Source: Lactobacillus sp. (GTDB lineage Bacteria > Bacillota > Bacilli > Lactobacillales > Lactobacillaceae). From it: 64,000 nucleotides of DNA. Of this stretch, positions 27,199 through 43,558 are shown in pieces. Numbering within the stretch: position 1 is the first letter of the stretch; each line of letters begins with the position of its first letter. Under the pieces are notes generated by a model. It was not told where the DNA came from. It worked only from the letters and a program-made list of their open reading frames with translations, and ran no database searches. Location of the stretch: assembly GCF_014803895.1 (NCBI RefSeq), contig NZ_JAAVAU010000010.1, forward strand, positions 15,715 to 79,714, given 5' to 3'. A program made the translations under genes and the position numbers.

Positions 27199-28005
27199 TT
27201 ATTTAGTTATGTCAGCATTAAAGTACTTTTGAGACAATTTTTTCACAGTGCCATCTTTTTCTAATTGAGTCATTGCACGATTATAAGACTTTTGAAGATC
27301 GGTATCTTTCTTATTGAATAAAGCAGAAATACTTACTGGAGCTTCTTGCTTAGAAACATCAATAATTTTCAATCCCTCAGTATTACCGCTCTTTTTGTAA
27401 TCATACCAAGCTTCGCGACTGTTGATTGCGCCAGCTACACGACCTTGTCGAATCATTGATAAAGAATTAGAAAATTCTTCACTTGGTACTACAATACCAC
27501 CATACTTTTTAGTGACAGCAGCATTGTTAGTCCCCGTTGAAGCAGCCATCTTTTTACCCTTAATATCTTTTAAACTCTTGATATTACTATTTTTAGGAAC
27601 AATTAATACATAACGAGATTTGATATAGGGAATCGAAAAATTATATTGTTTAGCGCGTTCGGGTGTACGAGAAATATTATTCATTACGACATCAAATTTG
27701 CCTGCACCTAAACCCGCAATCAATGAATCCCACTTAGTTGGAACAAATTTAGCTTTTAAACCCATTTTTTTAGCAACTTCTTTACCAAGCTCCACTTCAA
27801 AACCAGTTAGTTTACCATTTTTTACATATGAATAAGGTTTATATGTTCCCTCTAAGCCAATTATTAATGTCTTTTTGGTTTGATTAGGAGAAGAACTAGC
27901 TGTGGATGAATTAGTTGAATGAATAGCATTCCAACTTCCAATAAATCCATACCCCAGAATTAAAGTTCCTATAATTGTTAGGAAGATTTTTTGTCGTAGT
28001 TTCAT
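27199..28005 (-). CDS. Amino-acid ABC transporter substrate-binding protein
   Basis: 268 residues, a type II periplasmic-binding fold (SBP_bac_3). N-terminal hydrophobic segment (about 7-27) without a lipobox Cys, so it is probably membrane-anchored or secreted rather than lipidated. Family motifs: GLEGTYKPYSY, LTGFEVELGKEVAKKMG, DVVMNNISRTPERA. It is the last gene of the operon with the PLP enzyme and attenuator leader, which suggests cystine or another sulfur amino acid as ligand; this is inference. Confidence 0.85.
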   Translation of the reverse strand: MKLRQKIFLTIIGTLILGYGFIGSWNAIHSTNSSTASSSPNQTKKTLIIGLEGTYKPYSYVKNGKLTGFEVELGKEVAKKMGLKAKFVPTKWDSLIAGLGAGKFDVVMNNISRTPERAKQYNFSIPYIKSRYVLIVPKNSNIKSLKDIKGKKMAASTGTNNAAVTKKYGGIVVPSEEFSNSLSMIRQGRVAGAINSREAWYDYKKSGNTEGLKIIDVSKQEAPVSISALFNKKDTDLQKSYNRAMTQLEKDGTVKKLSQKYFNADITK

Positions 28006-28020: not shown

Positions 28021-28767
28021 TTATAAATTTTCTAGTGTCATTGAAGAAATAAAATTTTTGATACGGTTATTAGGATTATCTGCTGAGAAAAATGTGTTTG
28101 CGTCACCATCATAGTTAATTTCGCCATCTTCAATGAAAACAATTTTATCAGCAATTTTTTTTGCAAATAATAAATTATGAGTAACAATGACCATTGATTG
28201 TTTTTCACTAGCTAATTGTAATAAAACTCGCAAAACACTTAATTCTAGTTCCGGATCAAGAGCTGAAGTAGGTTCATCTAAAAGAATATATTTAGGTTTC
28301 ATTGCTAAAGCTCTAGCAATTGCTACTCTTTGGGCTTGTCCACCAGAGAGTTCAAATGGATAAGAGTTTTCGTATTTACTTAGATCTACTTTATTAAGTA
28401 ATTGCAGAGCTTCCAGAGTGGCTTGTTTTTTACTTTCTTTTAAAACTTGTGTAGGTCCTTCAATGATGTTCTTTAAAACAGATTTATGAGGAAAGAGATT
28501 GTAATTTTGAAAGACCATTCCCGTTTCTTGCCGAATTGATAGGATAGCTTTTCGCTCGATTTTATGGCTAAAGTCAATTTGATGAGCATCAAATTCATAT
28601 TTACCTTTTTTAGGAACGGTTAATAAATTTAATGACCGTAAGATAGTAGATTTTCCTGCTCCAGATGGACCAACAATTACAGTAGTTTTTCCTTCAGGAA
28701 ACTCTAAATTAATATTTTTTAAAATGTGCTTATTGCCTACAATATGGTTCACATTAATTAATTTCAT
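28021..28767 (-). CDS. Amino-acid ABC transporter ATP-binding protein
   Basis: 248 residues. Walker A GPSGAGKST (33-41), Q-loop, signature LSGGQAQR, Walker B LLDEPTSALDP and the switch His (VTHN). This is the polar-amino-acid (GlnQ-like) class. It lies 15 bp after the permease gene and 15 bp before the binding-protein gene; the three form one importer. Confidence 0.93.
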   Translation of the reverse strand: MKLINVNHIVGNKHILKNINLEFPEGKTTVIVGPSGAGKSTILRSLNLLTVPKKGKYEFDAHQIDFSHKIERKAILSIRQETGMVFQNYNLFPHKSVLKNIIEGPTQVLKESKKQATLEALQLLNKVDLSKYENSYPFELSGGQAQRVAIARALAMKPKYILLDEPTSALDPELELSVLRVLLQLASEKQSMVIVTHNLLFAKKIADKIVFIEDGEINYDGDANTFFSADNPNNRIKNFISSMTLENL

Positions 28768-28781: not shown

Positions 28782-29474
28782 TTAATGATTTATTTGGGGG
28801 TCCAAAACTTTTTCTAAATATTTTTGTAGGTAAGTCAAAACCGTTGTGAAAAGTGCATAAACTACGGCGGCCAAACTATACATTAATAATGGTTGATAAT
28901 TGGCTGCAGCAATTTGTTGGCTAACCGCAAACATTTCCATAATTGTAATGGAAGCTGCTAAGGAGGTATCTTTAACTAAACTAATAAAAGAGTTAGCTAG
29001 CGGAGGTAAAGCAACTCTGAGAGCTTGGGGAATAATAATTCGCCAAAGAGTTTTTAATTTTCCCATACCAATTGCAGCACCAGCTTCCCATTGACCTTCA
29101 GGAACAGAACTAATTGCTGCACGTAATGTTTCAGAAGCATATGCTCCGGTATTTAATGAAAAAGTAATCAAGCCAGCAACATAAGCTTCTAATTTTATAC
29201 CATCAGGAGTAATACCCTTGATTTTTAAATAGGGTAGACCAAAAAATACAATGAACAGTTGTACGATTAATGGAGTAGCCCGAAATAGCCAAACGTAAAA
29301 ACTAGCCAACCATTTCAAAATTTTAAAAGCTCCTTGACGCTTAGATATCCGGATTAACGCTGTTACTAAGGCAATAATTAAACCGAAGAAAAATGAAGTA
29401 ATAGCTAGAGGAAGGGTAAATTGTAATCCGGCTACTATCATTTGGGGAAGAGCTGTAATAATGGTATTCCACAT
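28782..29474 (-). CDS. Amino-acid ABC transporter permease
   Basis: 230 residues from ATG 29474 (GAAAGGAA upstream); an in-frame start at 29519 overlaps the upstream gene and is unlikely. Five membrane segments and the EAA loop (EAGAAIGMGKLKTLWRIIIPQALRVALP) that contacts the ATPase. HisM/GlnP-type polar amino-acid permease; the same protein probably homodimerises because only one permease gene is present. Confidence 0.9.
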   Translation of the reverse strand: MWNTIITALPQMIVAGLQFTLPLAITSFFFGLIIALVTALIRISKRQGAFKILKWLASFYVWLFRATPLIVQLFIVFFGLPYLKIKGITPDGIKLEAYVAGLITFSLNTGAYASETLRAAISSVPEGQWEAGAAIGMGKLKTLWRIIIPQALRVALPPLANSFISLVKDTSLAASITIMEMFAVSQQIAAANYQPLLMYSLAAVVYALFTTVLTYLQKYLEKVLDPQINH

Positions 29475-29502: not shown

Positions 29503-30645
29503 TTAATCCAATTGGGCAAGAGCTTGCTTTAAATCAGCAATTAAATCTTCTTCAGCTTCAATCCCTACCGAAAGACGAATTAAACCATCAGTAATCCCAA
29601 CTTTAATTCTTTCTTCACGAGGTACACTCCCATGAGACATATAGGAAGGCACTTCGATTAAACTTTCAATTCCACCTAAACTTTCAGCTAGATCAATCAA
29701 TTTCAAACTCTCTACAAACTTTTTAACATCTAAGCCCTCTTTTAATTCAAAAGAGACCATAGCACCAAAGTGTTTCATTTGTTTCTTAGCTACTTCACTT
29801 TCTGGTGAATCATCTAAACCAGGGTAGTAAATTTTCCCAATATGTGAATCTTTTTGTAAAAATTTAATGACCGCTTGGACATTTTCTAAATGAACACGCA
29901 TGCGAGCACTTAAAGTTTTTATACCTCGTTGTACTAACCAACTATCATCAGGACCCAGAACACTACCGATAGAATTTTGTAAGAAAGCTAATTTTTGAGC
30001 AATTTGAGGATCATTGGTTACTGCTAATCCAGCAACTACGTCACTATGACCGGCTAAGTATTTAGTAGCTGAATGAAGAACTAAATCAGCACCAAGAGTT
30101 AAAGGTTGTTGATTATATGGTGTAGCAAAAGTATTATCAACAATCGTTTTAAGATCATTTTGCTTAGCAATTGTCGCTATGGCTTCAATATCATCAACTT
30201 GCATTAATGGATTAGTTGGACTTTCAAAATAAACAGCTACTGTATTATCTTGAATAGCATTTTTGATTTCGGATAAATTACGCATGTCAACTACTGTAAA
30301 TTTAAAACCAAATCGCTTAAATACATGATTAATCAGGCGGAAGGTACCGCCATAAATATTATTATCAATAATAAAATGGTCACCAGCAGAAAACATCGAA
30401 AATGTAGTATTAATTGCAGCTAAACCTGATGAAAAAGCAAATCCGGTGATTCCGCCTTCTAAATCAGCGATTAGTTTTTCTAAAGCTGCTCGAGTTGGAT
30501 TACCGGTTCTAGCATATTCCCACTTAATCTCACCACCTAAAATTTTTTGATGAAATGTGGATGCTCGATAAATTGGTACTGAAACTGCACCTGTGGCAGG
30601 ATCTTCACTAATACCACCATGAATTAACTTTGTATCAAATTTCAT
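29503..30645 (-). CDS. Cystathionine lyase/synthase family PLP enzyme
   Basis: 380 residues from ATG 30645 (AAAAAAGGAG upstream). A Cys/Met metabolism PLP enzyme: YARTGNPTR (cofactor-binding), phosphate-binding SSGLAA, and SATKYLAGHSD with PLP-binding K195. Depending on specificity it would cleave cystathionine (gamma- or beta-lyase) or join Cys to an acylated homoserine. The Cys-codon attenuator upstream and the amino-acid importer downstream favour a role in cysteine supply or cystine uptake. The exact reaction cannot be told from these residues. Confidence 0.85.
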   Translation of the reverse strand: MKFDTKLIHGGISEDPATGAVSVPIYRASTFHQKILGGEIKWEYARTGNPTRAALEKLIADLEGGITGFAFSSGLAAINTTFSMFSAGDHFIIDNNIYGGTFRLINHVFKRFGFKFTVVDMRNLSEIKNAIQDNTVAVYFESPTNPLMQVDDIEAIATIAKQNDLKTIVDNTFATPYNQQPLTLGADLVLHSATKYLAGHSDVVAGLAVTNDPQIAQKLAFLQNSIGSVLGPDDSWLVQRGIKTLSARMRVHLENVQAVIKFLQKDSHIGKIYYPGLDDSPESEVAKKQMKHFGAMVSFELKEGLDVKKFVESLKLIDLAESLGGIESLIEVPSYMSHGSVPREERIKVGITDGLIRLSVGIEAEEDLIADLKQALAQLD

Positions 30646-30668
30646 AATTTTTATCTCCTTTTTTAGCA

Positions 30669-30803
30669 ACAAAAAAAGACGCAACTCATTAATTTAATGA
30701 ATTACGTCTTAAGCAAAAATTTATCCAGATTTTTTGATAGTTTAACGGTTCCTCAATTTATGAGGGCACATCAAAACCGTGGATTGCTCAAGACGCAATC
30801 CAC
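30669..30803 (-). promoter_or_regulatory. Ribosome-mediated Cys attenuator (three competing hairpins)
   Basis: On the reverse strand the leader hairpin GTGGATTGC/GCAATCCAC (30803-30779, 7-nt loop) begins at the last Cys codon. Its GCGTCTTGAGCAA strand (30796-30784) can pair over 13 bases, two of them G-U, with TTGCTTAAGACGT (30716-30704), forming an antiterminator. The second strand overlaps the 5' arm of an intrinsic terminator (AAGACG.../...CGTCTT plus seven T, 30710-30669) just before the PLP gene. Leader hairpin and terminator can coexist; each excludes the antiterminator. Ribosome stalling on Cys codons would cover the leader arm and favour readthrough. Confidence 0.82.
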
Positions 30804-30846
30804 AACAACAAGTATTGATCATTTTGGTAACTTGATTGTTAAACAT
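30742..30846 (-). CDS. Cysteine-rich regulatory leader peptide
   Basis: 34 codons beginning ATG 30846 with a perfect AGGAGG at 30855-30860 and 8-nt spacing. Residues 13-15 are three consecutive Cys (TGT TGT TGT), and Cys27 is a fourth. No membrane or enzyme feature is present. It ends at TAA 30742-30744, before the terminator. Its role is inferred to be Cys-tRNA sensing: slow decoding of the Cys run controls the downstream RNA fold. Confidence 0.82.
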   Translation of the reverse strand: MFNNQVTKMINTCCCGLRLEQSTVLMCPHKLRNR

Positions 30847-30877
30847 GATGTGTACCTCCTATATTGATTTGATTTTC

Positions 30878-30906
30878 ATCATAACTGACAATAAGTAAGA
30901 AGTCAA
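30878..30906 (-). promoter_or_regulatory. Promoter of the attenuator-controlled operon
   Basis: On the reverse strand TTGACT (30906-30901), exactly 17 bp, then TATGAT (30883-30878). It lies about 20 bp upstream of the leader peptide ribosome site. Confidence 0.75.
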
Positions 30907-31039
30907 GATTAGTTTTTAGATAATCATCAAAAATACAATCTAAGCATAATTTAAGCTTGAAAATAAGCATTTCACATAAGTGCTTTTTCTTTATAAACTT
31001 AGTAGTAAAAGTTATAAAGAAAAAAGAGGTTAGTAATTA

Positions 31040-31717
31040 GTGGACAAGCCTTATATTATTTGCCATATGATGATGTCATTAGATGCCAGAATCGATTGTG
31101 ATATGACAATTGATATTCCAGGTAATAATGTTTATTATGACACTTTAAATTCATTGGACGCACCTAGCCGAATCAGTGGCAAGGTAACTGCTGCGACAGA
31201 ATTAACTAATGGTAAGCTTTTTAGAGCTAAAAATTCTGAAGTAATCGGTCACCAAAGTTTTAAGGTAAATGCCAACGCCCATAGTTACGAAATTGTAACT
31301 GATACTCGAGGTACACTTACTTGGGGTGATGATCATAACAGTAGTAAACCGCATTTAATTTTAATGAGTGAAAATGCTCCTAAAGAATATACCGACTATC
31401 TTAATGAGCGTGGAATTTCTTGGATTGCTACTGGTAAAAAACGTATTGATTTAGTACATGCTATGGAAATTTTGACCAAGGAATTTGGTGTAGAGAGAGT
31501 GGCTGTCGTTGGTGGCGGTAAGATTAATGGTGGCTTTCTTGAAGCTGGTTTAATTGATGAAATTAGTGTTGTAATTGGACCTGCTGTTGATGGCAGAATT
31601 AATCAACCAAGTTTATTTGATGGTCGCAGAGAAAGCAAAAATCCAATTCAATTAAAACTCAAAGATGTTAAAAAATATGACAATGGTGCTATTTGGTTAA
31701 GATACTTAACTGAATAA
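31040..31717 (+). CDS. RibD C-terminal/dihydrofolate-reductase-fold oxidoreductase
   Basis: 225 residues with a GTG start preceded by AAAAGAGG. The N-terminal ICHMMMSLDARID and the C-terminal VVGGGKINGGFLEAGLIDEISVVIGP are signatures of the RibD-C/DHFR-like reductase family (NADPH-binding). Stand-alone members without the deaminase half are common in lactobacilli and their substrate is unknown; no riboflavin genes are nearby. Confidence 0.8.
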   Translation: MDKPYIICHMMMSLDARIDCDMTIDIPGNNVYYDTLNSLDAPSRISGKVTAATELTNGKLFRAKNSEVIGHQSFKVNANAHSYEIVTDTRGTLTWGDDHNSSKPHLILMSENAPKEYTDYLNERGISWIATGKKRIDLVHAMEILTKEFGVERVAVVGGGKINGGFLEAGLIDEISVVIGPAVDGRINQPSLFDGRRESKNPIQLKLKDVKKYDNGAIWLRYLTE

Positions 31718-32964: not shown

Positions 32965-34092
32965 TTATTTTAAATTGTTTAACGATTTAATAATTTTCGC
33001 ATCTTCTTCGTTTTTGTATTCGTCCATTAAATAACCATATCTATCAAGTGTGATAGAAACATTACTATGGCCAAGGCGTTTACTAATCGCATAAATATCT
33101 ATATGTTGGGATAGTAGAAAAGCAACATGACTATGTCTAAAAGAGTGAATGGTAACTCCCTGATTTTCAATGCGATATTTTTTTAAAATTCTTCCTATAG
33201 TTTTATTGGCATCTGAAGCCTTTGGAGGATATTTAGAACGCTTAGTTCCAAATACAAATTCCATATTATTAGCTTTCAATTGCTTTAAATACTTCAGTAA
33301 CTCATCAGATACAGCAATTGCTCGTGATTTTCCGTTTTTAGTAGGTCCCATTTCTCGGTGATCTAAATCAAAAGATTTGGTAATTGAGATAGTTTTGCTT
33401 TTAAAATCAATATCGTCCCAATGTAGGGCGCCGATTTCTCCAACACGCATACCAGTTAGAATTGCAGTGATTATCATATATCTACTAGTATAGCTAGGGC
33501 GAATGTCTTCTTCGCAAGCTTTTAAGAACGTTTTTAACTGAGTTAAACTAAGATATTCTACAACTCTATCTTTTGATTTATTGCCGTATAATTTTACCTG
33601 ATTAGTAAAATTTTTCGATATTATACCATCATCGATAGCATAGAATACACAAGCTCTAATCGTGGAATTTATCTTTTTAACGGTGCTGATAGCATAAGTT
33701 TGAGCCAGGCTATTTATGAATTGTTGATACTCTCGTTTGGTTATATCTTTCATATGCTTTTGAATGATCGAGTGCTTTTTTATCATTCCATATAAAGAAT
33801 TATAGCTTCTAATCGAATTGCGACGTAAATTTACAATTTTGACATTTATAAGCCAATATTGAAAATAATCCTTGAAAAGGGGGTTTTTAGTAACATCAAT
33901 ACCCTTTAAAGCAGCTGCTTCAAGCTCAATGCCATAATTAGTTGCCTCTACCTTAGTTTTAAAGCCACCTTTTTGCTTCTGAGTAAGAACAGACTTAAAT
34001 TCTTGCTTATCAGGGTCCCAAACTTTTACTCGTTTAGTAAATCTTACCGTCCAAGTTTTACTCTTTGGGTTGCGTTTAAATACGTGGGCCAT
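32965..34092 (-). CDS. int: Prophage tyrosine-recombinase integrase
   Basis: 375 residues. N-terminal arm-type AP2-like DNA-binding region (about 1-50), SAM-like core-binding domain (about 68-160), catalytic domain with R216 (GMRVGEI), Lys in the beta-hairpin (TKNGKSRAI), H316-x-x-R319 (HSFRH), H342 (LGHSN) and nucleophile Y352 (TLDRYGY). All catalytic residues are present, so it should be active. It is reverse to the early and late genes at the left end, the standard lactobacillus prophage position. Confidence 0.95.
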   Translation of the reverse strand: MAHVFKRNPKSKTWTVRFTKRVKVWDPDKQEFKSVLTQKQKGGFKTKVEATNYGIELEAAALKGIDVTKNPLFKDYFQYWLINVKIVNLRRNSIRSYNSLYGMIKKHSIIQKHMKDITKREYQQFINSLAQTYAISTVKKINSTIRACVFYAIDDGIISKNFTNQVKLYGNKSKDRVVEYLSLTQLKTFLKACEEDIRPSYTSRYMIITAILTGMRVGEIGALHWDDIDFKSKTISITKSFDLDHREMGPTKNGKSRAIAVSDELLKYLKQLKANNMEFVFGTKRSKYPPKASDANKTIGRILKKYRIENQGVTIHSFRHSHVAFLLSQHIDIYAISKRLGHSNVSITLDRYGYLMDEYKNEEDAKIIKSLNNLK

Positions 34093-34124
34093 TTTTTAAT
34101 TGCTCCATTTATGATAAAATAGAA

Positions 34125-34240
34125 TAGACTAAAAGCGTGAGAGAAATGCCAGTTTCTGTTCACGTGTTAGATTAGTCTACAATATTACAAGTTTTAGTGA
34201 GAACTCATTATCATGCCAGTGGTAGTGAGTTTTTATTTAT
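34125..34240 (+). ncRNA. Candidate structured RNA with two identical hairpin loops
   Basis: An extended -10 box (TGATAAAAT, 34112-34120) precedes an RNA that would fold as TAGACTAA/TTAGTCTA (34125-34132, 34172-34179), CGTGA/TCACG inside it, and AGAA/TTCT closing the loop ATGCCAGT (34146-34153). A second hairpin, CTCATTATC/GGTAGTGAG (34204-34229), displays the same loop ATGCCAGT (34213-34220) and is followed by TTTTTATTTAT, like a terminator. It contains no ORF of note. It resembles integrase-associated structured motifs reported in lactobacilli, but I cannot confirm identity. Confidence 0.55.
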
Positions 34241-34267
34241 CTTTTTAGGTCTTCAAAATATTGGACC

Positions 34268-34347
34268 TTGTATTTTTTTAATAAAAGTATATAATTAACT
34301 TAGTTTTCTGATACGAGTCCTGCTCCTTATGGAGCAGGGCTTTTTTT
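34268..34347 (+). promoter_or_regulatory. Promoter-like pair followed directly by a strong terminator
   Basis: TTGTAT (34268-34273), 16-bp spacer, TATAAT (34290-34295) on the forward strand. About 20 bases later comes the perfect hairpin CCTGCTCC/GGAGCAGG with a T-run (34319-34347). The transcript would be only about 45 bases, antisense to the region after the exported-protein gene. It may insulate the lysogeny module or be a tiny RNA. Confidence 0.45.
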
Positions 34348-34349
34348 GT

Positions 34350-34760
34350 TTATTTAATTACTTTAAACCATTTTGTATCGCTATAAATTTTACCGATTAC
34401 CCATGCATAGCCAGAAGTTTTTGTGCGATAGTCTCTGCTGTATAAACTGAGACCTGAGTGAGTGTAACCATTTTTGATAAGGAACCATCCAAATTGCATA
34501 CCACCGGATACAGTTTTTATTACCGTCCCCTTTTTTAGGTCCTTGCCTTGTCTAATAAATTGTGTTTGGTAAACATGCTTGGCCATTTTAATTTTATAAA
34601 TGTGCACATTTTTGGTTAATTTTACTGTTCTAGGGGCATACCAATTTGTTGCAGCTTCTACAGTATCAGGGGAGTGATGTGTAGTTGTGGTGGCTGTAAC
34701 TCCAATGCCTGATGCTAACGATGCTGTAATTAATAATTTAGTCAACAATTTATGTTTCAT
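34350..34760 (-). CDS. Small exported prophage protein, candidate lysogenic conversion factor
   Basis: 136 residues. A Sec signal peptide (hydrophobic core about 8-26, probable cleavage near VEAAT, residue 38) precedes a basic, Tyr/Lys/Trp-rich mature domain of about 98 residues with no sorting motif. It lies 76 bp after the repressor gene in the same direction, so it is probably expressed in the lysogen. Its place between repressor and integrase is the usual spot for lysogenic-conversion genes. Function unknown. Confidence 0.65.
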   Translation of the reverse strand: MKHKLLTKLLITASLASGIGVTATTTTHHSPDTVEAATNWYAPRTVKLTKNVHIYKIKMAKHVYQTQFIRQGKDLKKGTVIKTVSGGMQFGWFLIKNGYTHSGLSLYSRDYRTKTSGYAWVIGKIYSDTKWFKVIK

Positions 34761-34836
34761 AATTTCCTCCTGAAAAAAGCCTCAGGTTTATAGTCACTGG
34801 TTGATGGACAAAATTTTATAGTTCTTTAATTAAGAA

Positions 34837-35478
34837 CTATAATTCATAACTTACTTTAATAACTTGACCGATAATACGATCTTTATTCTTATCATTTAAA
34901 AGAATAGGGTCGTATTTTTGATTTTCAGCCATTAGCATCAATTGGTTTCCTAAACGCTTAATGCGCCTTAAAATCAAATTATCATCATCGTCAATATAAA
35001 CTGCTGCTATTTTATCATTTTTAGTATTTTTTTGTTCTTTGATAGTAACTAGAGCGCCTTTTGGAATAATAGGGGCCATACTATCATCTTTACAATAATA
35101 GGCAAAAAACTTACCTTGGGGTTCTTTTACAAATAATTGTGAAACATAACCAGATATATCAGCATTCATATTTTGAATATCAGTTATATTTTGAATTATG
35201 GGAATCCTTACTATATGCTGATCATGTTTTTCTAGGTATTCCACATTCGTAGGCCTATTAAAAGCTGTTGCTGGAAAAAAGTCATCTATTGAGACTTCTA
35301 AAACATCAGATAGCTTAAATAGAATGTCTTGGTTAGTATTTCTAATGCCGGTTTCATAACGAGTAACGGTTGCACGCGATACACCCAACTTATTTGCTAA
35401 TTGTTCAGCAGTTAAATGCCTAGATTTGCGTATCGCTCGTATCTTATTGCCAATATAAATATTTAAATCGGTAGCCAT
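34837..35478 (-). CDS. Prophage CI-like repressor (XRE HTH plus S24 peptidase domain)
   Basis: 213 residues. Helix-turn-helix at about 10-60 (LTAEQLANKLGVSRATVTRYETG) and a C-terminal LexA/S24 domain with the nucleophile Ser in YCKDDSMAP (about residue 130) and a Lys in NDKIAAVYID. It should keep the lytic genes off and be inactivated by RecA-stimulated self-cleavage in SOS. The reverse-strand promoter (TATAAT about 35500) is overlapped by an operator, consistent with autoregulation. Confidence 0.9.
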   Translation of the reverse strand: MATDLNIYIGNKIRAIRKSRHLTAEQLANKLGVSRATVTRYETGIRNTNQDILFKLSDVLEVSIDDFFPATAFNRPTNVEYLEKHDQHIVRIPIIQNITDIQNMNADISGYVSQLFVKEPQGKFFAYYCKDDSMAPIIPKGALVTIKEQKNTKNDKIAAVYIDDDDNLILRRIKRLGNQLMLMAENQKYDPILLNDKNKDRIIGQVIKVSYEL

Positions 35479-35515
35479 ATTTTTTCTCCTTATGATTTTT
35501 ATTATAACTATTATT

Positions 35516-35609
35516 GGACCTAATTGGAACTTTTTTTTATTAAATCATAAAAAAAGTGTTGACATAGTTCCATATTGGAATTATTATTAATATTGTTCCA
35601 ATAAGGAAC
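35516..35609. promoter_or_regulatory. Three repressor/Cro operators in the switch region
   Basis: Three related 15-bp palindromes: GGACCTAATTGGAAC (35516-35530), GTTCCATATTGGAAT (35567-35581) and GTTCCAATAAGGAAC (35595-35609), consensus GTTCC-N5-GGAAC. The first overlaps the -35 region of the repressor promoter. The second fills the spacer of the rightward promoter. The third lies near its transcript start. Confidence 0.8.
35559..35587 (+). promoter_or_regulatory. Rightward early promoter
   Basis: Perfect TTGACA (35559-35564), 17-bp spacer, TATTAT (35582-35587), reading into the Cro-like gene. Confidence 0.8.
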
Positions 35610-35631
35610 AATATTAAAGGAAGGTGAATTT

Positions 35632-35850
35632 GTGCAAAAGAATTTATATGCCCTTCGTAAAGAGATGGGATTAACTCAAGATGATGTAGCGAATTACTTG
35701 CATATCTCGCAACAAACTTACAGAAATAAAGAATTAGGTTATAAATTGTTTAATGCGGAAGAAATGTTTAAATTAAGTCATTTGTTCCATAAACCTATAG
35801 AAAAAATTTTTTTACCCCCTAATGTTCCAAAATGGACCAAAAACAATTAA
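35632..35850 (+). CDS. Cro-like XRE regulator
   Basis: 72 residues with a GTG start (AAAGGAAGG upstream). The entire protein is a helix-turn-helix domain (MGLTQDDVANYLHISQQTYRNKELG). It is the first gene from the early promoter and divergent from the repressor, so it should act as Cro. The gene's 3' end contains a further operator-like palindrome. Confidence 0.82.
   Translation: MQKNLYALRKEMGLTQDDVANYLHISQQTYRNKELGYKLFNAEEMFKLSHLFHKPIEKIFLPPNVPKWTKNN
35824..35838. promoter_or_regulatory. Fourth operator-like palindrome, inside the cro 3' end
   Basis: GTTCCAAAATGGACC matches the switch-region operators (mirror of the first one, which has GGACC on the other side). It lies within codons near the end of the Cro-like gene, about 230 bp from the cluster. 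Confidence 0.5.
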
Positions 35851-35868
35851 GTGTAGAGGTTAACAATC

Positions 35869-36576
35869 ATGAGACGTATCAAAAAACAATACACCAGACA
35901 TTTCACCACAATTGATAATCAAGTTTTAAATGACTCAAAAATTAGTTTTGGGGCTATCGGATTGTTTAGCTATTTGTGGGCACAAGCAGACACGTTTGAT
36001 TTTTATATCAGTGCAATCGTTAAGCATAGTGACAAAGATGGCCGAACTAAGGTTGAAGGTTATCTTAAAGAGCTTGAAATGCGCGGTTATCTCACTAGAA
36101 CTAAGAAGCGAGTTAAAGGTCAGTTCAACGGTTACGAATGGATATTAACTGATCATTTACCACAACGGAAATCTTCGAAAGCGGAAAATACCATATCGGT
36201 TAAAACCGATGACGGTAAAACCGTGGACGGAAAATCCGCAGCGGTAAACAAGCAACTAATAAATACTAATCAAACAATAACTAATCAAATAAATACTAAG
36301 TCTAATAATAATCAATCTCTCTCTAACAATACTGAGAGAGAGAAAGAAAATAAAAATTATTTTTTAGCACAAATGGTTAAGCTTCAGTTTGAAAGTTGTG
36401 AAATTTCAGTAAGCGATAAGGAACTGGATAAGATTGCTATCGCTGTAGCAAACAAAAATGCGCGTGCTGTTCATGATGAGCTCTATAAAGCCTTAGCACT
36501 GTCTAACCAATATCCCGTTGGATACTTCTTAAGTTGCGTTAATAACTTACCTGATATGGAGGTTTCAAATGACTGA
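35869..36576 (+). CDS. Phage replisome organiser-like winged-helix protein
   Basis: 235 residues. An N-terminal winged-helix domain (about 10-90: FTTIDNQVLNDSKISFGAIGLFSYLWAQ) resembles phage replication organisers that have helix-turn-helix plus DnaD-like architecture. A low-complexity Asn/Thr/Gln linker (about 125-155) leads to a C-terminal helical region. Placement right after cro supports a role in replication initiation. The DnaD-like nature of the C-terminus is not certain. Confidence 0.65.
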   Translation: MRRIKKQYTRHFTTIDNQVLNDSKISFGAIGLFSYLWAQADTFDFYISAIVKHSDKDGRTKVEGYLKELEMRGYLTRTKKRVKGQFNGYEWILTDHLPQRKSSKAENTISVKTDDGKTVDGKSAAVNKQLINTNQTITNQINTKSNNNQSLSNNTEREKENKNYFLAQMVKLQFESCEISVSDKELDKIAIAVANKNARAVHDELYKALALSNQYPVGYFLSCVNNLPDMEVSND

Positions 36577-36652
36577 TAAAGTGTATTACATTTTGCTGAT
36601 TGTCATATTGATTGTTGGCCCGGTACTTGGTTGGTACTGTGGCGGATTGTAA
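36569..36652 (+). CDS. Single-span 27-residue membrane peptide
   Basis: ATG 36569 with GGAGG 6 bp upstream overlaps the previous gene by 8 bp. Nearly the whole product is one membrane helix (VYYILLIVILIVGPVLGWY). Too short for family assignment. Confidence 0.5.
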   Translation: MTDKVYYILLIVILIVGPVLGWYCGGL

Positions 36653-36664
36653 GAGGTGATCCTT

Positions 36665-36964
36665 ATGCAACATACGCATGATAAAACAGAAATCAAAAAT
36701 ATTGTTGATGAGATAATGCAAGAGCGTGATTATCGACCAGCTGAAGAAATCATCGGCCGCACTATTGGTATTAAGGAATTTGCTAAGAAATATTGTTGTC
36801 CTCATGGCATAGAGTGGGTTAAAAATGAAATTTTCTACAAGTTTAATCCTGACTGGGTAGTGGATATTCATCCTGGAGTTGGACGCGGCTTTACGATTTT
36901 CGAAGATGAAGCAGCGGTGTGGATGAAAGAGCACCGTAATGAAATTAACTGGAGGTCTTCATGA
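36665..36964 (+). CDS. Small prophage early protein (DUF771-like)
   Basis: 99 residues from ATG 36665 with AAGAGG upstream; an in-frame GTG at 36656 lies inside the ribosome site. The C-terminal WVVDIHPGVGRGFTIFEDEA-type ending and a short HTH-like middle (GIKEFAKKYC) resemble DUF771 phage proteins, which may bind DNA. It overlaps the next gene by 4 bp. Confidence 0.5.
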   Translation: MQHTHDKTEIKNIVDEIMQERDYRPAEEIIGRTIGIKEFAKKYCCPHGIEWVKNEIFYKFNPDWVVDIHPGVGRGFTIFEDEAAVWMKEHRNEINWRSS

Positions 36965-37194
36965 AAGAGCTGATAGATCAATTCACCAAAGACATCGATG
37001 AAAAGTTATTGCAGCTGAAAATAACAAAAACTGACCTTGAAAAAGAAGTTGGTTGGTTAAGCCATAACCCTGATAGAATTAATAGCTTAATTGCGGTCGC
37101 TAATCGTTATCAGAGTTTGTTAATTGAGCTAAAGGCATTGGAAAACCAAAAGCAACTTTTAGTTTTGTTAACTGCTACACGGGAGGAAAAATAA
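36961..37194 (+). CDS. Small coiled-coil prophage protein
   Basis: 77 residues, rich in Leu, Lys and Glu with heptad spacing throughout, predicted helical. It overlaps neighbours by 4 bp upstream and 1 bp downstream, so it is part of the tightly packed early operon. Function unknown. Confidence 0.5.
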   Translation: MKELIDQFTKDIDEKLLQLKITKTDLEKEVGWLSHNPDRINSLIAVANRYQSLLIELKALENQKQLLVLLTATREEK

Positions 37195-37418
37195 TGGAAC
37201 TACCTAGATACAAAGAACAAGTTGAAATTAACAAACAAATCGCATTTGAACATCAATCTTGGGGATACAAGCTTTCTTGTAAGTTCAATGATGCCGTTAA
37301 TCATTTCTTAAAACCAACACACCTATTTAGTCGCCGTGGAACTGATTGCATGGCATTAGGTTCAGTTATCGTGGTTCTTGCGATGTTACTCGGTGCATAC
37401 CTTCACATGAGAGGTTAA
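37194..37418 (+). CDS. Small prophage protein with C-terminal membrane segment
   Basis: 74 residues. Soluble basic N-terminal part, one membrane helix at about 52-70 (MALGSVIVVLAMLLGAYL). GGAGG of the preceding gene end serves as ribosome site. Function unknown. Confidence 0.5.
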   Translation: MELPRYKEQVEINKQIAFEHQSWGYKLSCKFNDAVNHFLKPTHLFSRRGTDCMALGSVIVVLAMLLGAYLHMRG

Positions 37419-37423
37419 ACCAA

Positions 37424-37492
37424 ATGAGTGACAAAACAATAAAAAAGCTACTTGCGGCTATCATCGCTTTACCAGCTGGATTAGCTATATAG
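37424..37492 (+). CDS. 22-residue hydrophobic peptide
   Basis: ATG 37424 preceded by AGAGG. The product has a short hydrophobic stretch (LLAAIIALPAGLAI) after Lys residues. It lies exactly between two coding regions in the packed operon, so it is plausible but unproven. Confidence 0.35.
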   Translation: MSDKTIKKLLAAIIALPAGLAI

Positions 37493-37495
37493 GTG

Positions 37496-37642
37496 ATGAA
37501 GATGCAGAACCAAACTAAAAAGAAACTAATCAAAGCTTCCAATGCTTTAGATGCCGGCTTCATTATCTTACAAGGTTTTGAAAGCACAAAAAAGAGCCTT
37601 GATATCCGACATATCAAAGCTCGCAAAAATTATAAAAGCTAA
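37496..37642 (+). CDS. 48-residue basic prophage protein
   Basis: ATG 37496, with GGTG just upstream overlapping the end of the previous small ORF. Lys-rich, partly hydrophobic (LDAGFIILQGF), no family recognised. It ends 14 bp before the Gp157 gene. Confidence 0.4.
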   Translation: MKMQNQTKKKLIKASNALDAGFIILQGFESTKKSLDIRHIKARKNYKS

Positions 37643-37656
37643 GGAGATTATAACAC

Positions 37657-38136
37657 ATGAACAATATTTTTGAAATCAACGCCGCAATTAAAGCGGTTCA
37701 AGAAAAGGATTTAGATCCTGAAGTTATCCAAGACACTTTAGATAGCTTAGCTTTAGCTAGAGATAAAAAGCTTGATGGCGTAGCAGGCTGGATTGAAAGC
37801 AACAATGCAAAAATCGATTGGCTTTCTGAAAAAATCAAACAACTTCAGGACGTAAAGAAACACTTCAACAACCAAAATATCCGGTTGATGGATTACTTAA
37901 CCGCTGCAATTGACAACACCGGCAAAAAGGAAATCAAGACAGCTCACCACTTACTTAAACCTAGAAACTACCGGGATTCGGTAGTTGTTGAAAATAGTGA
38001 AGAACTTCCAGCTGACTATATAAAGCTTGAGGAAGTTCAAAAAATCGATAAAGCCAAGCTTTATGAAGATTTGAAGAAGGGTAAGGAAATTACCGGTGCC
38101 CATCTAAAAGAAAATCGAAAGACAAGAATCATGTAA
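37657..38136 (+). CDS. Siphovirus Gp157 family protein
   Basis: 159 residues. Matches the Gp157 pattern: early helical part (NNIFEINAAIKAVQ), central coiled-coil (WIESNNAKIDWLSEKIKQLQ) and C-terminal KIDKAKLYEDLKKGKEITGA. Streptococcus phage members have been linked with resistance to phage infection; within phages it accompanies the Sak4-type ATPase. AAGGAG precedes the ATG. Confidence 0.78.
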   Translation: MNNIFEINAAIKAVQEKDLDPEVIQDTLDSLALARDKKLDGVAGWIESNNAKIDWLSEKIKQLQDVKKHFNNQNIRLMDYLTAAIDNTGKKEIKTAHHLLKPRNYRDSVVVENSEELPADYIKLEEVQKIDKAKLYEDLKKGKEITGAHLKENRKTRIM

Positions 38137-38173
38137 TGGCTACCAAACTAATAAAAGAAAGAGAGGGAAATCA

Positions 38174-38902
38174 ATGCCACTAGTTAGTTCATTAAAAGCA
38201 AAAGAACAGGGTTGGCGTATTTTGATTTATGGTAAACCCGGTGTAGGTAAAACATATTTGGGAAAATTCTTAAAAGGCAAAACTTTCCTATTAAGTTTTG
38301 ATAAATCGTATACCAGATTAAAGAAAACAATATATCAAGATGAAAATTCTATTTGGAATTTAGATTCTGATAATGTCCAAAAAGATTTAGCTAATTTTGC
38401 GATTTGGTGGAGAGATGCTCACAAAAAATATGACAATCTTATCATAGATAATATTACGAGTTTACAAGATTTATGGTTTGTCGAAAAAGCTAGAGAGTCT
38501 AAAAACGGTCTAGATAATCAAATAGCCCATTACAACGAATTCGTAAATTATTTGATCAGATTTATGGCTTCAATGTTGAATTATGATTTGAATATCTTGA
38601 TTACTGCATGGGAAGCTCAGCGCGATATTACCATTGATTCGGGTCAACAGATAAGCCAATATGCGCCAAGTATGCGTGATAAAGCGCGTGACTGGTTAAT
38701 GGGCCATTGCGACATTGTCGGTCGATTAATTCAGAAACCATCTACTGGTGAAAGAGGTGTAATTCTATCGGGAAATGATGGAATTTATGCCAAAAATCGA
38801 ATGGATAGCCGTAAGGGATGCAAAGTTGAAGAATTATTTAACTTTGATACAGCTGATAATTACGATAAAAAAGTTAAACAATCATCTAAGAGCGATAGTT
38901 AA
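38174..38902 (+). CDS. Phage AAA_24/Sak4-like ATPase
   Basis: 242 residues. Walker A GKPGVGKT (about 20-27), Walker B-like YDNLIIDNIT (about 94-103). RecA-core phage ATPases of this type (Sak4) promote single-strand annealing with phage SSB-like proteins. The neighbours Gp157, helicase and DUF669 are the usual partners. It overlaps the helicase ATG by 1 bp. Confidence 0.78.
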   Translation: MPLVSSLKAKEQGWRILIYGKPGVGKTYLGKFLKGKTFLLSFDKSYTRLKKTIYQDENSIWNLDSDNVQKDLANFAIWWRDAHKKYDNLIIDNITSLQDLWFVEKARESKNGLDNQIAHYNEFVNYLIRFMASMLNYDLNILITAWEAQRDITIDSGQQISQYAPSMRDKARDWLMGHCDIVGRLIQKPSTGERGVILSGNDGIYAKNRMDSRKGCKVEELFNFDTADNYDKKVKQSSKSDS

Positions 38903-40260
38903 TGTTTAAATTATTTGATTATCAACAAAAGCTAGTCACCGAAATTAGAAAAGCTTTAATTGATGGAAATCAAAGTGTTCTTATAGTTAGTCCCCCGGGT
39001 AGTGGAAAATCAGTTGTAATTGCTGAAATAGCAAGATTAACTACTTTAAAAGGTAATAGGGTTATGTTTACGGTTCATAAAAAAGAATTAGTAAAGCAAA
39101 TTCGAGAAACATTTATCAAACAAAATGTTGATATGAAGCTTTGCACTATTATGACCGTTGGCAAAATCAAAAACAGATTATCTATCTTACCTAGACCTAA
39201 CTTAATCATTACGGATGAGACTCATCACAGTTTAGCTAAGACGTATCAAAAAATATATGATTACTATTCTGATGTACCGCGTTTAGGTTTTACAGCAACA
39301 CCTTGGCGATTATCCGGCCAAGGATTAAGTGAAATCTATGATGTGATGATTGAAGGTAAAGCGGTTAAGTGGCTGATTGATCATCATCACCTGGCACCTT
39401 ATAAATACTGGTGTAGTGAAGATGGCAATCGTGAATTATTAAAAAAGTCGTCTACCGGGGATTTTACGCAAGCCTCAATGGATGAATTTTCTAAATACAT
39501 AATCCGTGGAGATATCGTTAAAAATTGGATTGAACACGGCGAAAATAGAAAAACAATTATCTATTGTCACTCAATCCAGTTTAGTCAAGAAGTAGTTAAA
39601 GCATTTAATGACGCTGGAATTAATGCAATTCATGTTGATAGTAAGACACCCTCTAAAAAGCGTGATCAAATCATGGAAGACTTTAGAAACGGGAAAATAA
39701 AAATACTATCTAACGTAGATTTAATTTCTGAGGGCTTTGATGTTCCGGATTGTGGATGCGTAGTTTTACTTAGGCCAACGGCTAGCTTAGTACTGTACTT
39801 GCAGCAAGCAATGCGTTGCATGAGGTATCAACCTGGAAAAGAAGCAATTATTATTGACCAAATCGGCAATGTTCATAGCTTCGGAGCACCGGCCACGGAA
39901 AGAAAATGGTCACTGGAAGCTAGAAAGCGTAAGAATAATGCTAGTAATGAAGGTCCTAGTATTAGGGAATGTCCTCAATGCTATGCATGGTTTGAACCAG
40001 TGAAATCTAAAAACATTTGTCCAATTTGCGGATTCAAAGTCCCGGTAGAGGAACGCAAAGATAAGATTGAAGTTGATGAAAAAGCTAAATTAACAAAATT
40101 TACTTCAGACGATGAACAATATGTAGCTAATTATAAGTACTTAGATGTTAAGCCATCTGAATTGAATTCAGTAGAAGAATTAAAAGAGTACGCCAAAGTT
40201 AAAGGATATAAGCCAGGCTGGATTTATTTTCAGCAAAAACAACGCGGCTGGCTTAAATAG
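38902..40260 (+). CDS. Phage DEAD/DEAH-box helicase
   Basis: 452 residues, superfamily 2. Walker A SPPGSGKS (about 30-37), DETH box (ITDETHH), GFTATPWR, and a C-terminal helicase domain ending in QAMRCMR. A zinc-ribbon (CPQC...CPIC, about 357-377) follows. It would unwind DNA in replication or recombination alongside the Sak4-like protein and primase. Confidence 0.9.
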   Translation: MFKLFDYQQKLVTEIRKALIDGNQSVLIVSPPGSGKSVVIAEIARLTTLKGNRVMFTVHKKELVKQIRETFIKQNVDMKLCTIMTVGKIKNRLSILPRPNLIITDETHHSLAKTYQKIYDYYSDVPRLGFTATPWRLSGQGLSEIYDVMIEGKAVKWLIDHHHLAPYKYWCSEDGNRELLKKSSTGDFTQASMDEFSKYIIRGDIVKNWIEHGENRKTIIYCHSIQFSQEVVKAFNDAGINAIHVDSKTPSKKRDQIMEDFRNGKIKILSNVDLISEGFDVPDCGCVVLLRPTASLVLYLQQAMRCMRYQPGKEAIIIDQIGNVHSFGAPATERKWSLEARKRKNNASNEGPSIRECPQCYAWFEPVKSKNICPICGFKVPVEERKDKIEVDEKAKLTKFTSDDEQYVANYKYLDVKPSELNSVEELKEYAKVKGYKPGWIYFQQKQRGWLK

Positions 40261-40275
40261 AAAGGAAAAATTAAA

Positions 40276-40815
40276 ATGACACAACCATTATTTACTACAG
40301 ATTACTCAAATTTGGATGAAGACAACAATTACGATGCATTGCCAAAAGGTAATTATGAATGCATCGTGACTAAAGCCCAACCCGATGCAACTCCTAGTGG
40401 TACTGAAAATATCAGTATTACCTTACAAGTTCGTTCAGACCTTGACCAAGCTATGCCGGATACAAATGGTAAGTATCATAAGCGCTTAATTTTCTTAAAC
40501 ATTTGGAAACGTAAAAAGACTGGCAAGTATGATGCCAACGAAATTAATCGCATTATGAAAGCTATTGGAGTGCCACAAGGAACATCAATTGCGACTTGGG
40601 ATGATTTTACCGATATATTAGTAAACAAACCGGTTAGAGTAAGTTTAGTTTTAGATAAAAGTGAATATAATGGGAAAACAACCGAAAGAAATTCAGTATT
40701 TCCAAATGGTTGGCATACAACCCAATTTCCACTTCAAGGAACTAACACTGCAGCTGATCCATTTAAAGATAGCAAAGAAGGTACTGAACTTTCAGATTCT
40801 GATATTCCATTTTAG
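40276..40815 (+). CDS. DUF669 family phage protein
   Basis: 179 residues. LPKGNYECIVTKAQPDATPSG, NISITLQVRSDLDQ and the acidic C-terminal tail ending SDSDIPF match DUF669, and the DIPF-type tail resembles that of single-strand-binding proteins. It sits between helicase and primase, where an SSB-like function would fit. That function is inference. Confidence 0.78.
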   Translation: MTQPLFTTDYSNLDEDNNYDALPKGNYECIVTKAQPDATPSGTENISITLQVRSDLDQAMPDTNGKYHKRLIFLNIWKRKKTGKYDANEINRIMKAIGVPQGTSIATWDDFTDILVNKPVRVSLVLDKSEYNGKTTERNSVFPNGWHTTQFPLQGTNTAADPFKDSKEGTELSDSDIPF

Positions 40816-40824
40816 GAGGCTTAA

Positions 40825-43188
40825 ATGTCTGAATTTAATTACACTACAATCCCCGATAAGCTCAGACAGTTAAGCCAATGGGGAAACTTCAACTTAAAAT
40901 GGGTTGAAGAGCGTCACAAAAATACAAAAATTCCAATTAATTCATACACAGGATTAAATGGCAAATCAAATGCCCCTAGTTCATGGGCTGATTTTTCCAC
41001 AGCTCTTAAAGCGCTGGATAAGTATGATAGGGCTGATGGACTAGCATTGTACCTAGAAAACGGCCTTGTTGGCCTAGATGTTGATCACATTAAAGACGAT
41101 TTAGAAAGTTACTTACTCGGTGACCCTGACCCGGATAACCTGATTAGACAAATTAAAGAATTAACTAAAAATAGTTATATGGAAGTTAGTCAATCGGGCG
41201 AAGGAATCCATGTCATCTTTAAAGGAAAAATTCCAGGTAAACGCAGAAGAAAAGGCCAATTCGAAATGTATCAATCTGGTAGGTTCTTCGCAATGACTGG
41301 TAACCGCATTGGTTCCGGCGACGTTAAAGAGCTAAACCACGATGAGATGTTGAAGTTATATGAATTTTGCTTTGGTAAAGACCCTGAGCCAGTAATGAGG
41401 GAAGCAGTAGCAAAGCCAATTAATAATTTATCGATTGGTGATGTTATTCGAAAAGCTTTAAGTTCAAAAACTGGTGATCGATTTGCTTGGTTTATGTATG
41501 GAGGCTGGGAAGGACATTATAATTCGCATTCTGAAGCAGATATTGCATTTGCGAATGATTTAGCATTTTGGTGCTCTGGGGATGTATCTATGATGAGACA
41601 AATTTTTGAAAATTCGGCTATGATACGCCCTAAATTCAATTCAAAACGTGGCAATTCGACTTACGGACAAGAACTGTTAGAAAAAGCAGCTAGTGAAGCA
41701 CACAATTTCTACTCTCAAGAAGTTGAAGAAGCAGACGATTATCATGCTGATTTGAGCTTTCTGGATACAGAGCCAAACTTACCAGACGCTCCTAAGCACT
41801 ATTCACAAGATGATACTGGTAATGCAAAGAGATTTGTAGAGATGTTTGGTGATGATGTTCGTTACATGTCAGGTGAACGTAAAGGTTGGTATATCTATGA
41901 AAATGGCGTTTGGTCATCTGATGACATGGGAAAAATTGAAACTATGGCTGATAAAGTTCCGGAAAGAATGCTTAAAGAAAAATTGCCTATTTCCGAAGAT
42001 ATGGATAAAAGCGATATTAGCAAAGCAGAAAGAAATTGGAATAAATTTATTTCTCAAACACGAAATCGTCGCGGGATTCAAAATATGTTAGCTACGGTTC
42101 AACACTATGTTCCAGTTAAACATGGAAGTTTTGATAAAGATCCAATGCTACTAAACGTGAAAAATGGCTATATTGATTTACATGATGGCTCACTTCATCC
42201 ACATAGCAAAAAGATGATGTTCTCCCTTCAAGCTAATGCTGAGTATCATCCTCAATCAGCGTTCCCGGTATGGGAAGGATTTCTAAATCAAATCTTTAAA
42301 AATAATAAGGACGTAATTCATTATCTTCAAAAGTGGATTGGCTACACTGTTACGGGTCTAACTATTGAGCAGCAAATGGTTATGTTTAACGGTGGAGGCC
42401 GTAATGGTAAGTCAACTCTAGCAGATACGATTTATGACTTATTAGGAAGTTACGCAAAATCAATAAATGTAAAATCACTGATGAATCAAAAAGGTTCTAA
42501 TGCCAGTAATCCTGAAATAGCAGAACTCGAAGGGGCTAGATTTGTTCTTACGTCTGAACCAAATGAAGGGGATGTATTAGACGAATCACAAATCAAACAA
42601 ATGACCGGTGGGGATCCAATAAATGCAAAGAAACTATATGGTGACCCATTTGAAATGACTCCTAAGTTTAAGTTACTTATGCAGACCAACCACCTTCCTA
42701 CCATTAAAGGAACGGACGACGGAATTTGGCGAAGAATTGTAGTTTTTCCCTTTAACGTTCAAATTCCCATTGAAAAAGTCGATAAGCATTTGAAGGAAAA
42801 ACTGCACAAAGAGTATTCAGGAATTCTTAATTGGATTGTCCAAGGTACACTAATGTATCAAAAAGAAGGTTTAGACAATGTTCCGGAAATCATGAGAAGT
42901 GCTGCTAATGATTACCGTGAAGAATTGGATATCATACAGCAATTCTTAAATGATACGTGTATTAAAGGTAGGACCCCTGATTATATGGTTAAAGCGAGTG
43001 AGCTTTATCAAAAATATCAAGAATGGGCTAAAAATACTGGTAGTTACGACGGATATTCTATGACTAAATTTGGCATCAAAGTGAAAGAAAAAATACAATC
43101 CCAGCACACCAGAAATGGTAATTTTTATATCGGAATAAAAATAAATTCGTTCAATGAACCATATCCAAACTCAATTTGGAATAAATAA
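40825..43188 (+). CDS. Phage primase-helicase (D5/P4 type)
   Basis: 787 residues. N-terminal prim-pol-like domain (about 10-170, with GLDVDHIK and GEGIHVIFKG), then a D5_N region (about 350-460) and a superfamily 3 helicase with Walker A GGGRNGKST (about 523-531), LTSEPNEGD, and the QTNHLPTIKGTDDGIWRR sensor motif. One polypeptide therefore supplies priming and unwinding. Its end adjoins a repeat-rich AT-rich origin candidate. Confidence 0.88.
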   Translation: MSEFNYTTIPDKLRQLSQWGNFNLKWVEERHKNTKIPINSYTGLNGKSNAPSSWADFSTALKALDKYDRADGLALYLENGLVGLDVDHIKDDLESYLLGDPDPDNLIRQIKELTKNSYMEVSQSGEGIHVIFKGKIPGKRRRKGQFEMYQSGRFFAMTGNRIGSGDVKELNHDEMLKLYEFCFGKDPEPVMREAVAKPINNLSIGDVIRKALSSKTGDRFAWFMYGGWEGHYNSHSEADIAFANDLAFWCSGDVSMMRQIFENSAMIRPKFNSKRGNSTYGQELLEKAASEAHNFYSQEVEEADDYHADLSFLDTEPNLPDAPKHYSQDDTGNAKRFVEMFGDDVRYMSGERKGWYIYENGVWSSDDMGKIETMADKVPERMLKEKLPISEDMDKSDISKAERNWNKFISQTRNRRGIQNMLATVQHYVPVKHGSFDKDPMLLNVKNGYIDLHDGSLHPHSKKMMFSLQANAEYHPQSAFPVWEGFLNQIFKNNKDVIHYLQKWIGYTVTGLTIEQQMVMFNGGGRNGKSTLADTIYDLLGSYAKSINVKSLMNQKGSNASNPEIAELEGARFVLTSEPNEGDVLDESQIKQMTGGDPINAKKLYGDPFEMTPKFKLLMQTNHLPTIKGTDDGIWRRIVVFPFNVQIPIEKVDKHLKEKLHKEYSGILNWIVQGTLMYQKEGLDNVPEIMRSAANDYREELDIIQQFLNDTCIKGRTPDYMVKASELYQKYQEWAKNTGSYDGYSMTKFGIKVKEKIQSQHTRNGNFYIGIKINSFNEPYPNSIWNK

Positions 43189-43446: not shown

Positions 43447-43474
43447 GCAGGAGGCATAAGATAAAGCCCCTGAT

Positions 43475-43558
43475 ATGCCCTTGGAAGAAATCAAGGAGTT
43501 TTTCAGAAAATACAATGCCGGTGAGGACATTGGAGAATATAGGAGGAATTTAAAGTGA
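43475..43558 (+). CDS. Possible 27-residue ORF
   Basis: ATG 43475 to TGA 43556-43558, overlapping the next ORF start (GTGA). Charged product. No well-spaced ribosome site, only GGAGG about 22 bases upstream. Low support. Confidence 0.3.
   Translation: MPLEEIKEFFRKYNAGEDIGEYRRNLK

Follow-up and report, generated by a model that had tools for sequence, protein, structure and literature searches.

The window analysed here is a stretch of 64,000 nucleotides (nt) from Lactobacillus sp. (RefSeq assembly GCF_014803895.1, contig NZ_JAAVAU010000010.1, positions 15,715 to 79,714 of the forward strand), in which a leader of about 200 nt lies on the minus strand, flanked by an operon on that strand for a sulfur amino-acid enzyme and an ATP-binding cassette (ABC) importer (Table 1) and by a divergent open reading frame (ORF) on the plus strand at 31040-31717. 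An initial annotation, made from the sequence alone, had described this leader as a cysteine attenuator built of a promoter, an AGGAGG Shine-Dalgarno (SD) sequence, a 34-codon ORF with Cys codons 13-15 in a row, a leader hairpin, a 13-bp antiterminator competing with that hairpin, and a terminator, and we found all of these parts on the minus strand where it had placed them, the antiterminator consisting of 13 contiguous pairs, two of them G-U. To this list can be added a fourth Cys at codon 27 of the leader ORF. Here, the element is interpreted as a ribosome-mediated transcription attenuator of the trp/his type that probably reads the supply of Cys-tRNA, a reading to which we assign a probability of nearly 0.9 from comparative sequence evidence.

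Table 1. Parts of the cysteine leader and genes of the operon that follows it, in window coordinates
Feature	Position	Strand	Evidence
Sigma-70-type promoter, TTGACT-17-TATGAT	30878..30906	-	sequence
Shine-Dalgarno AGGAGG of leader ORF	30855..30860	-	sequence
Start-site lock strand S, CACAUCA, in the SD-AUG spacer	30846..30852	-	pairs with 30767-30773
Leader peptide ORF, 34 codons, MFNNQVTKMINTCCCGLRLEQSTVLMCPHKLRNR	30742..30846	-	ORF translation
Regulatory Cys codons 13-15 (TGT TGT TGT)	30802..30810	-	sequence
Leader hairpin, regions 1:2, 9 bp	30779..30803	-	fold, covariation
Antiterminator strand 2	30784..30796	-	13 contiguous pairs with 30704-30716, covariation, swap test
Start-site lock strand S', UGAUGUG, directly 3' of leader hairpin	30767..30773	-	pairing, permutation test
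Antiterminator strand 3, shared in part with the terminator 5' arm	30704..30716	-	covariation, swap test
Intrinsic terminator, regions 3:4, then T run	30676..30710	-	terminator scan, covariation
Cys/Met metabolism pyridoxal phosphate (PLP) enzyme, cystathionine gamma-lyase type	29503..30645	-	PF01053; NCBIfam matches below curated cut-offs
ABC permease	28782..29474	-	best NCBIfam match cystine permease, below cut-off
ABC ATPase	28021..28767	-	best NCBIfam match L-cystine ATPase TcyN, below cut-off
Solute-binding protein family 3	27199..28005	-	best NCBIfam match cystine-binding, below cut-off

Within the window leader, the 5' end of the hairpin falls inside the third Cys codon, and the first operon gene starts at 30645. 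The leader is unusually stable in folding (z = -4.9), with none of 200 shuffles equally stable, and the surrounding interval 30300-31300 holds two terminator-like sites against 0.3 expected; promoter matches in the same interval are at chance level (4 against 4.8 expected). Moreover, three consecutive Cys residues occur in just 2 of the 357 ATG-initiated ORFs of at least 20 amino acids in the window.

The three pairings were assessed across 65 homologous loci (L and G numbers denote loci and genomes), aligned with MAFFT blind to structure as 62 rows (alignment A3) after three identical ones (L073, L085, and L093) were set aside, with a mean pairwise identity of 60%, or 55% between the window and the others. 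All three, namely leader hairpin, antiterminator, and terminator, show the compensating changes in homologous leaders that the initial annotation had proposed as a check. In the antiterminator, 88.3% of cells are paired and both-sided changes occur at 11 of the 13 pairs, giving 69 both-sided cells against 21.5 +/- 4.3 in shuffles, and pairing falls to 27-53% when the partners are slid by 1-3 columns. For the leader hairpin and terminator together, the corresponding values are 92.4% paired, both-sided changes at 15 of 15 pairs, 83 both-sided cells against 19.4 +/- 3.3, and 34-61% pairing with slid partners. The last antiterminator pair (unpaired in 30 of 62 leaders) and one leader-hairpin pair (unpaired in 34) are weakly kept. 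On a wider 69-row set (A4), a chosen subset that omits 14 of the A3 rows, six of the 24 loci from a second search batch, and two of the five plasmid loci, the antiterminator is 85.3% paired. In addition, swapping strands between leaders weakened the 2:3 duplex from a mean of -22.9 kcal/mol for own partners to -15.3 kcal/mol for foreign ones.

The leader ORF and its Cys run are likewise retained. With start codons picked without regard to frame and the Cys position taken from its alignment column, the run is in frame with a start codon behind an SD match of at least 5 nt in all 49 testable leaders of the 62. In an earlier frame test of 89 leaders, 69 fell in frame 0, 11 in frame 2, and nine were unassignable; the 11 frame-2 cases are taken as off-frame catches, because that search began 30 nt upstream and accepted TGY-NNN-TGY. 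Three consecutive Cys residues are present in 73 of these 89 leaders and two of the three in the rest, at least two Cys having been the condition for counting as a leader, and the codons themselves switch synonymously between TGT and TGC. Upstream, the best promoter score is at least 10 of 12 in 42 of 62 leaders, the window included, against 2.4 expected from mononucleotide shuffles, and where the score is at least 9 the median distance from the end of the -10 element to the start codon is 31 nt. Taken together, several of the features by which a ribosome-mediated attenuator is recognised are present, as a leader ORF with SD and start codon (its translation being predicted), a run of codons for the pathway amino acid at the leader hairpin, mutually exclusive 1:2, 2:3, and 3:4 pairings that covary, and an intrinsic terminator ahead of the structural gene.

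How such a leader might work was modelled by folding it with and without a ribosome. With a ribosome masked onto the RNA so that the second Cys codon sits in the A site and the transcript ends at region 3, the probability of the antiterminator, P(2:3), exceeds 0.5 in 57 of 62 leaders, and a ribosome placed on the stop codon gives a terminator probability above 0.5 in 60 of 62 (0.97 in the window). On the present reading, a ribosome would load on the leader once its start site is transcribed, and, with ample Cys-tRNA, would pass through region 2, so that 3:4 would form and transcription would stop; with no ribosome, 1:2 and then 3:4 would form, again with termination. When Cys-tRNA is scarce, the ribosome would instead stall at codons 13-15 and cover region 1, and 2:3 would pair before region 4 exists, letting RNA polymerase enter the operon. 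Both the translation of the leader and the Cys-tRNA sensing step are what we infer from these parts.

A possible counterpart of this switch has been described in Lacticaseibacillus paracasei, where the cysK2-ctl1-cysE2 operon is expressed more highly when the medium is deficient in cysteine than when it is deficient in methionine (log2 about 3). That operon shows high coverage of the 5' untranslated region (5'-UTR) and a terminator, has no T-box, and is reported to undergo likely premature termination by a mechanism 'yet to be discovered' (PMC6004538, 2018). We found the published terminator motif exactly in two plasmid copies of the leader, L127 from L. rhamnosus and L128 from L. paracasei, and as a close variant in two others, L130 from L. 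paracasei and L131 from L. casei, all four with a leader peptide of the type ...INCCCRTT(R/L)FWRCSAC upstream of the motif. Their 2:3 duplex is calculated at -25.8 kcal/mol in L127, L128, and L130, and is weaker in L131 (-20.4 kcal/mol). The 5'-UTR of cysK2-ctl1-cysE2 shares its terminator motif with plasmid copies that carry a Cys leader, and neither a leader peptide nor an antiterminator is described in the available part of that account (PMC6004538); the link to the FAM18149 operon is drawn through these plasmid copies. Plasmids with the element ahead of a cysteine-synthase-family gene come from L. rhamnosus Lc 705, L. paracasei, L. casei, and Limosilactobacillus fermentum, as found among five regions read out of 497 records with a lyase match, and the L. 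paracasei, L. rhamnosus, and L. casei copies precede an operon of the cysK-ctl-cysE type. No plasmid match was found for the L082 leader.

Several observations weigh against an attenuator of this kind. In 13 of the 62 leaders no start codon satisfies the strict rule of an SD match of at least 5 nt upstream, some leaders have two Cys of three (CLC, CCS, CCY, and others), and in L069 (leader 213-344) a UGA stop stands immediately 3' of the three Cys codons, after MNNIQFVNAVVCCC. The shuffles used to judge covariation ignore relatedness, which the slid controls retain, and in the swap test a single leader can pair as well with foreign partners, up to 48 of 61, as with its own. In folding, the transcript that ends at region 3 already has P(2:3) above 0.5 in 34 of 62 leaders, the window among them, when no ribosome is present. 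Moreover, the full-length leader with a stalled ribosome still favours the terminator at equilibrium (median probability 0.83), and between the stop-codon and the stalled state the terminator probability drops by more than 0.2 in only 21 of 62. Because the terminator is kept at this equilibrium, the choice would have to fall during transcription, as kinetic antitermination. In textbook attenuation, the choice between terminator and antiterminator is indeed made while the RNA is being transcribed. With regard to L. paracasei, the published comparison is one of cysteine-free with methionine-free medium, and its authors caution that RNase III could enrich structured leaders (PMC6004538).

The pairing of regions 2 and 3 in ribosome-free RNA means that an untranslated transcript would be ON, and a further helix appears to counter this in many members. 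This helix joins the SD-AUG spacer to the segment directly 3' of the leader hairpin, as it does in the window (read from 30852 to 30846 against 30773 to 30767) and in other leaders with the pairs CGCCAAAU:AUUUGGCG, GGGAACACCAA:UUGGUGUUCCC, and ACCAAAGA:UCUUUGGU; neither this pairing nor the connection with the unexplained operon of L. paracasei had been noticed in the initial annotation. Among 29 non-redundant leaders, the longest such helix averages 6.7 bp with the own partner against 5.3 bp when swapped, with none of 5000 permutations as good, and by energy the own helix outdoes the average distant partner in 53 of 62 leaders and shuffled segments in 52 of 62. The helix is weak or absent in several leaders, with 4 bp in L074, L087, L100, and L110. 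Since it crosses the antiterminator in order, the two could not coexist as simple nested helices. When the start region is left free to pair, mean P(2:3) at region 3 falls from 0.82 to 0.53, with a drop of more than 0.3 in 24 of 62 leaders and never a rise of more than 0.1; the window shows little of this effect (0.94 to 0.93), and the full leader little change in mean terminator probability (0.84 to 0.87). This covarying pairing would best be understood as a start-site lock, which would hold an untranslated leader closed and OFF and might limit re-initiation. A pairing that hides the leader start site has also been reported for trpL.

Among other explanations, the nearest is nascent-peptide arrest, in which the same RNA switch would be operated by a stall arising from the peptide (CCC together with Arg-rich residues), a ligand, or the redox state instead of a shortage of Cys-tRNA. 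This we consider improbable, since what precedes CCC differs between leaders in both length and sequence, the residues after it vary as well (CCCGSHS, CCCEARQ, CCCVPRLS, and CCCRTTRF), and such conservation as they have can be explained by their lying in the RNA segments that form 1:2 and 2:3. Less probable again is a small-molecule riboswitch or an RNA-binding protein acting on the same terminator, with the ORF incidental. Premature termination alone is no proof of a ribosome, and the L. paracasei authors considered S-box- or T-box-like control (PMC6004538); yet the starts are in frame in 49 of 49 leaders with synonymous change in the Cys codons, conservation in A3 peaks at the Cys run, the paired arms, the post-hairpin segment, and the terminator, and no family of Rfam 15 (S-box, SMK, T-box RF00230, and others) matches the leader at gathering score. 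That the palindrome might be a protein operator or a plain constitutive terminator is a shade more doubtful still: such a palindrome had already been listed among potential regulatory motifs (Liu et al. 2012, cited through PMC6004538), but covariation ties its 5' arm to region 2 as well, dozens of nt further upstream, and a plain operator needs neither that nor a Cys leader. Finally, a T-box or S-box/SMK leader is hardly credible, for while such RNAs are common at Cys/Met genes in Firmicutes and a Cys T-box is present on another operon of L. paracasei FAM18149 (PMC6004538), no match at gathering threshold was obtained in the window leader, L001/L002, or ten further homologous loci, in a search that detected the T-box of L025 as a positive control and left L024, T-box-like in sequence, below threshold.

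The leader family could be followed through the Lactobacillaceae. In named genomes, a protein scan returned 21 loci, two of them close (72% identity), in Paucilactobacillus nenjiangensis and P. suebicus, where the same leader layout precedes a cysteine-synthase-like gene, a lyase gene, and cysE. A first covariance model built from these two sequences and the window gave matches at 70 places, spread over 60 of the 397 Lactobacillaceae genomes searched, and 64 of these places have a Cys leader; the six without one (L117, L121-L124, and L126) were dropped before all counts. Later models with more members, followed by inspection of weaker places, added a second batch with a Cys leader in 24 of 40 (none in 16) and then 5 of the 53 remaining weak places (L207, L218, L221, L222, and L223, all from the family sample), these last five standing outside every alignment and test. 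The checked total is 64 + 24 + 5 = 93 places in 81 of the 397 genomes, twelve of which have two, and this is a lower bound, as eight candidates were scored per genome under strict filters and opposite-strand places in G299 and G159 were left out. No leader was accepted in the order sample (395 genomes, 322 of them new), which gave weak matches in 25 new genomes at E >= 1.8e-4; one doubtful case there is L245, where a 3-nt SD match precedes an ORF of 15 codons that includes two Cys. At E <= 0.001 the class sample (398 genomes) returned the centre genome G001 and two other weak matches without a Cys leader ORF. In these samples the element is confined to the Lactobacillaceae, limits that rest on the sampling.

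What the leader precedes is consistent with its Cys codons. Taking the first same-strand cluster downstream, with clusters named from representatives, Cys-supply genes follow in 64 of the 65 loci, the remaining one being a contig end; these first clusters are cysteine synthase/CBS-like in 35, lyase in 19 (including the window), ABC importer in eight, and a MetA-like acyltransferase followed by CysK in two. In the window, the PLP gene and the ABC importer of the initial annotation are both present, the former with cystathionine gamma-lyase (6ldo/6le4, E 2.2e-147) as its nearest solved chain, while cystine is a likely substrate of the importer, whose best family matches, all cystine subunits, fall below curated cut-offs. 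The two acyltransferase loci (L097 and L119) pair a MetA/HTS-like gene with CysK, and a gene named metA in L. paracasei is annotated as a serine acetyltransferase in a table footnote (PMC6004538). In L080, L086, L090, L092, and L093, the gene that comes after the leader and cysteine-synthase-like gene resembles an NADPH-dependent FMN reductase. Leader and lyase are separated by an opposite-strand ORF in L068, and the L076 permease begins 701 nt away from where the leader match starts. Among the 24 second-batch loci, L173 (SBP_bac_5) and L189 (by resemblance) precede peptide-binding-type proteins, and L176 has its leader, MLNNVMPNEFCSACCVVCNKLFGVIKIQ, and terminator ahead of another amino-acid ABC permease. 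Leaders with CCCC were noted in L173, L185, and L189, L185 ending near a contig edge, and their position before oligopeptide-binding-type proteins in L173 and L189 suggests Cys-controlled peptide uptake. Cys makes up 0.29% of residues in the ORFs downstream of the leaders. Elsewhere in the window, integrase-like and phage-repressor-like genes, named from the look of their translations without a family search, lie at 32965-35478 and perhaps mark the start of a prophage beside the locus, and a phage search of 33000-52000 found just 155 bp of terminase resembling known phages (about 80%); an RNase P RNA of class B is located at 5433-5791.

On a broader view, we lean slightly towards a Lactobacillaceae-wide, partly plasmid-borne cysteine regulon, in which one homologous attenuator takes two inputs, Cys-tRNA supply through the stalled ribosome and leader initiation through the lock that would keep untranslated RNA OFF, and is spread over genes of biosynthesis, cystine import, and possibly peptide binding. 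It can share a genome with T-boxes, that of P. nenjiangensis having the Cys leader plus a T-box before a paralogous gene; the T-box of L025 (1143-1413, RF00230) precedes the paralogous lyase gene of G001, whose other lyase operon has the Cys leader. The genes under control include the cgl/cyuABC type, which has been linked to a redox stress response that depends on cysteine in L. reuteri (PMC6722424), so that the supply of Cys-tRNA might matter for redox defence in lactobacilli of gut and food. The leader also offers a testable answer to the open question of how cysK2-ctl1-cysE2, an operon linked to making cysteine from methionine (PMC6004538), is controlled. Moreover, a phylum known for T-boxes gains with it a large and well-supported family of leader peptides, whose element can be annotated at once by covariance model.

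The element is best read as a new RNA family of a classical, known mechanism, and the open-licence literature yielded no recognisable account of a Cys attenuator in lactobacilli. The trp and his attenuators of Escherichia coli and Salmonella are alike in layout, the amino acid here being cysteine, the hosts Lactobacillaceae, and the genes those of Cys import and reverse transsulfuration. The initial annotation had called ribosome-mediated leaders rare in Firmicutes, which is fair as to rarity, but the leader is not unique there. The Listeria Rli60 leader of ilv-leu is reported to be ribosome-mediated, with leader peptide, terminator, and antiterminator, and was tested there by mutation, though it responds to branched-chain amino acids (PMC5864092), and the His leader peptides of bacillar hisS/hisZ also stand in place of T-boxes, but concern histidine and are a computational prediction (PMC2965389). 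For cysteine itself, runs of Cys codons precede cys or cbs genes in Mycobacterium, Propionibacterium, and Bifidobacterium, where no conserved terminator hairpin was found (PMC1262725). The leader uORFC-8-2 before cysS of Rhodobacterales combines tandem Cys codons, usually 14-15, with a terminator and a proposed sensing of Cys-tRNA, and differs in belonging to Alphaproteobacteria, in serving one gene, and in having two Cys codons (PMC8632094).
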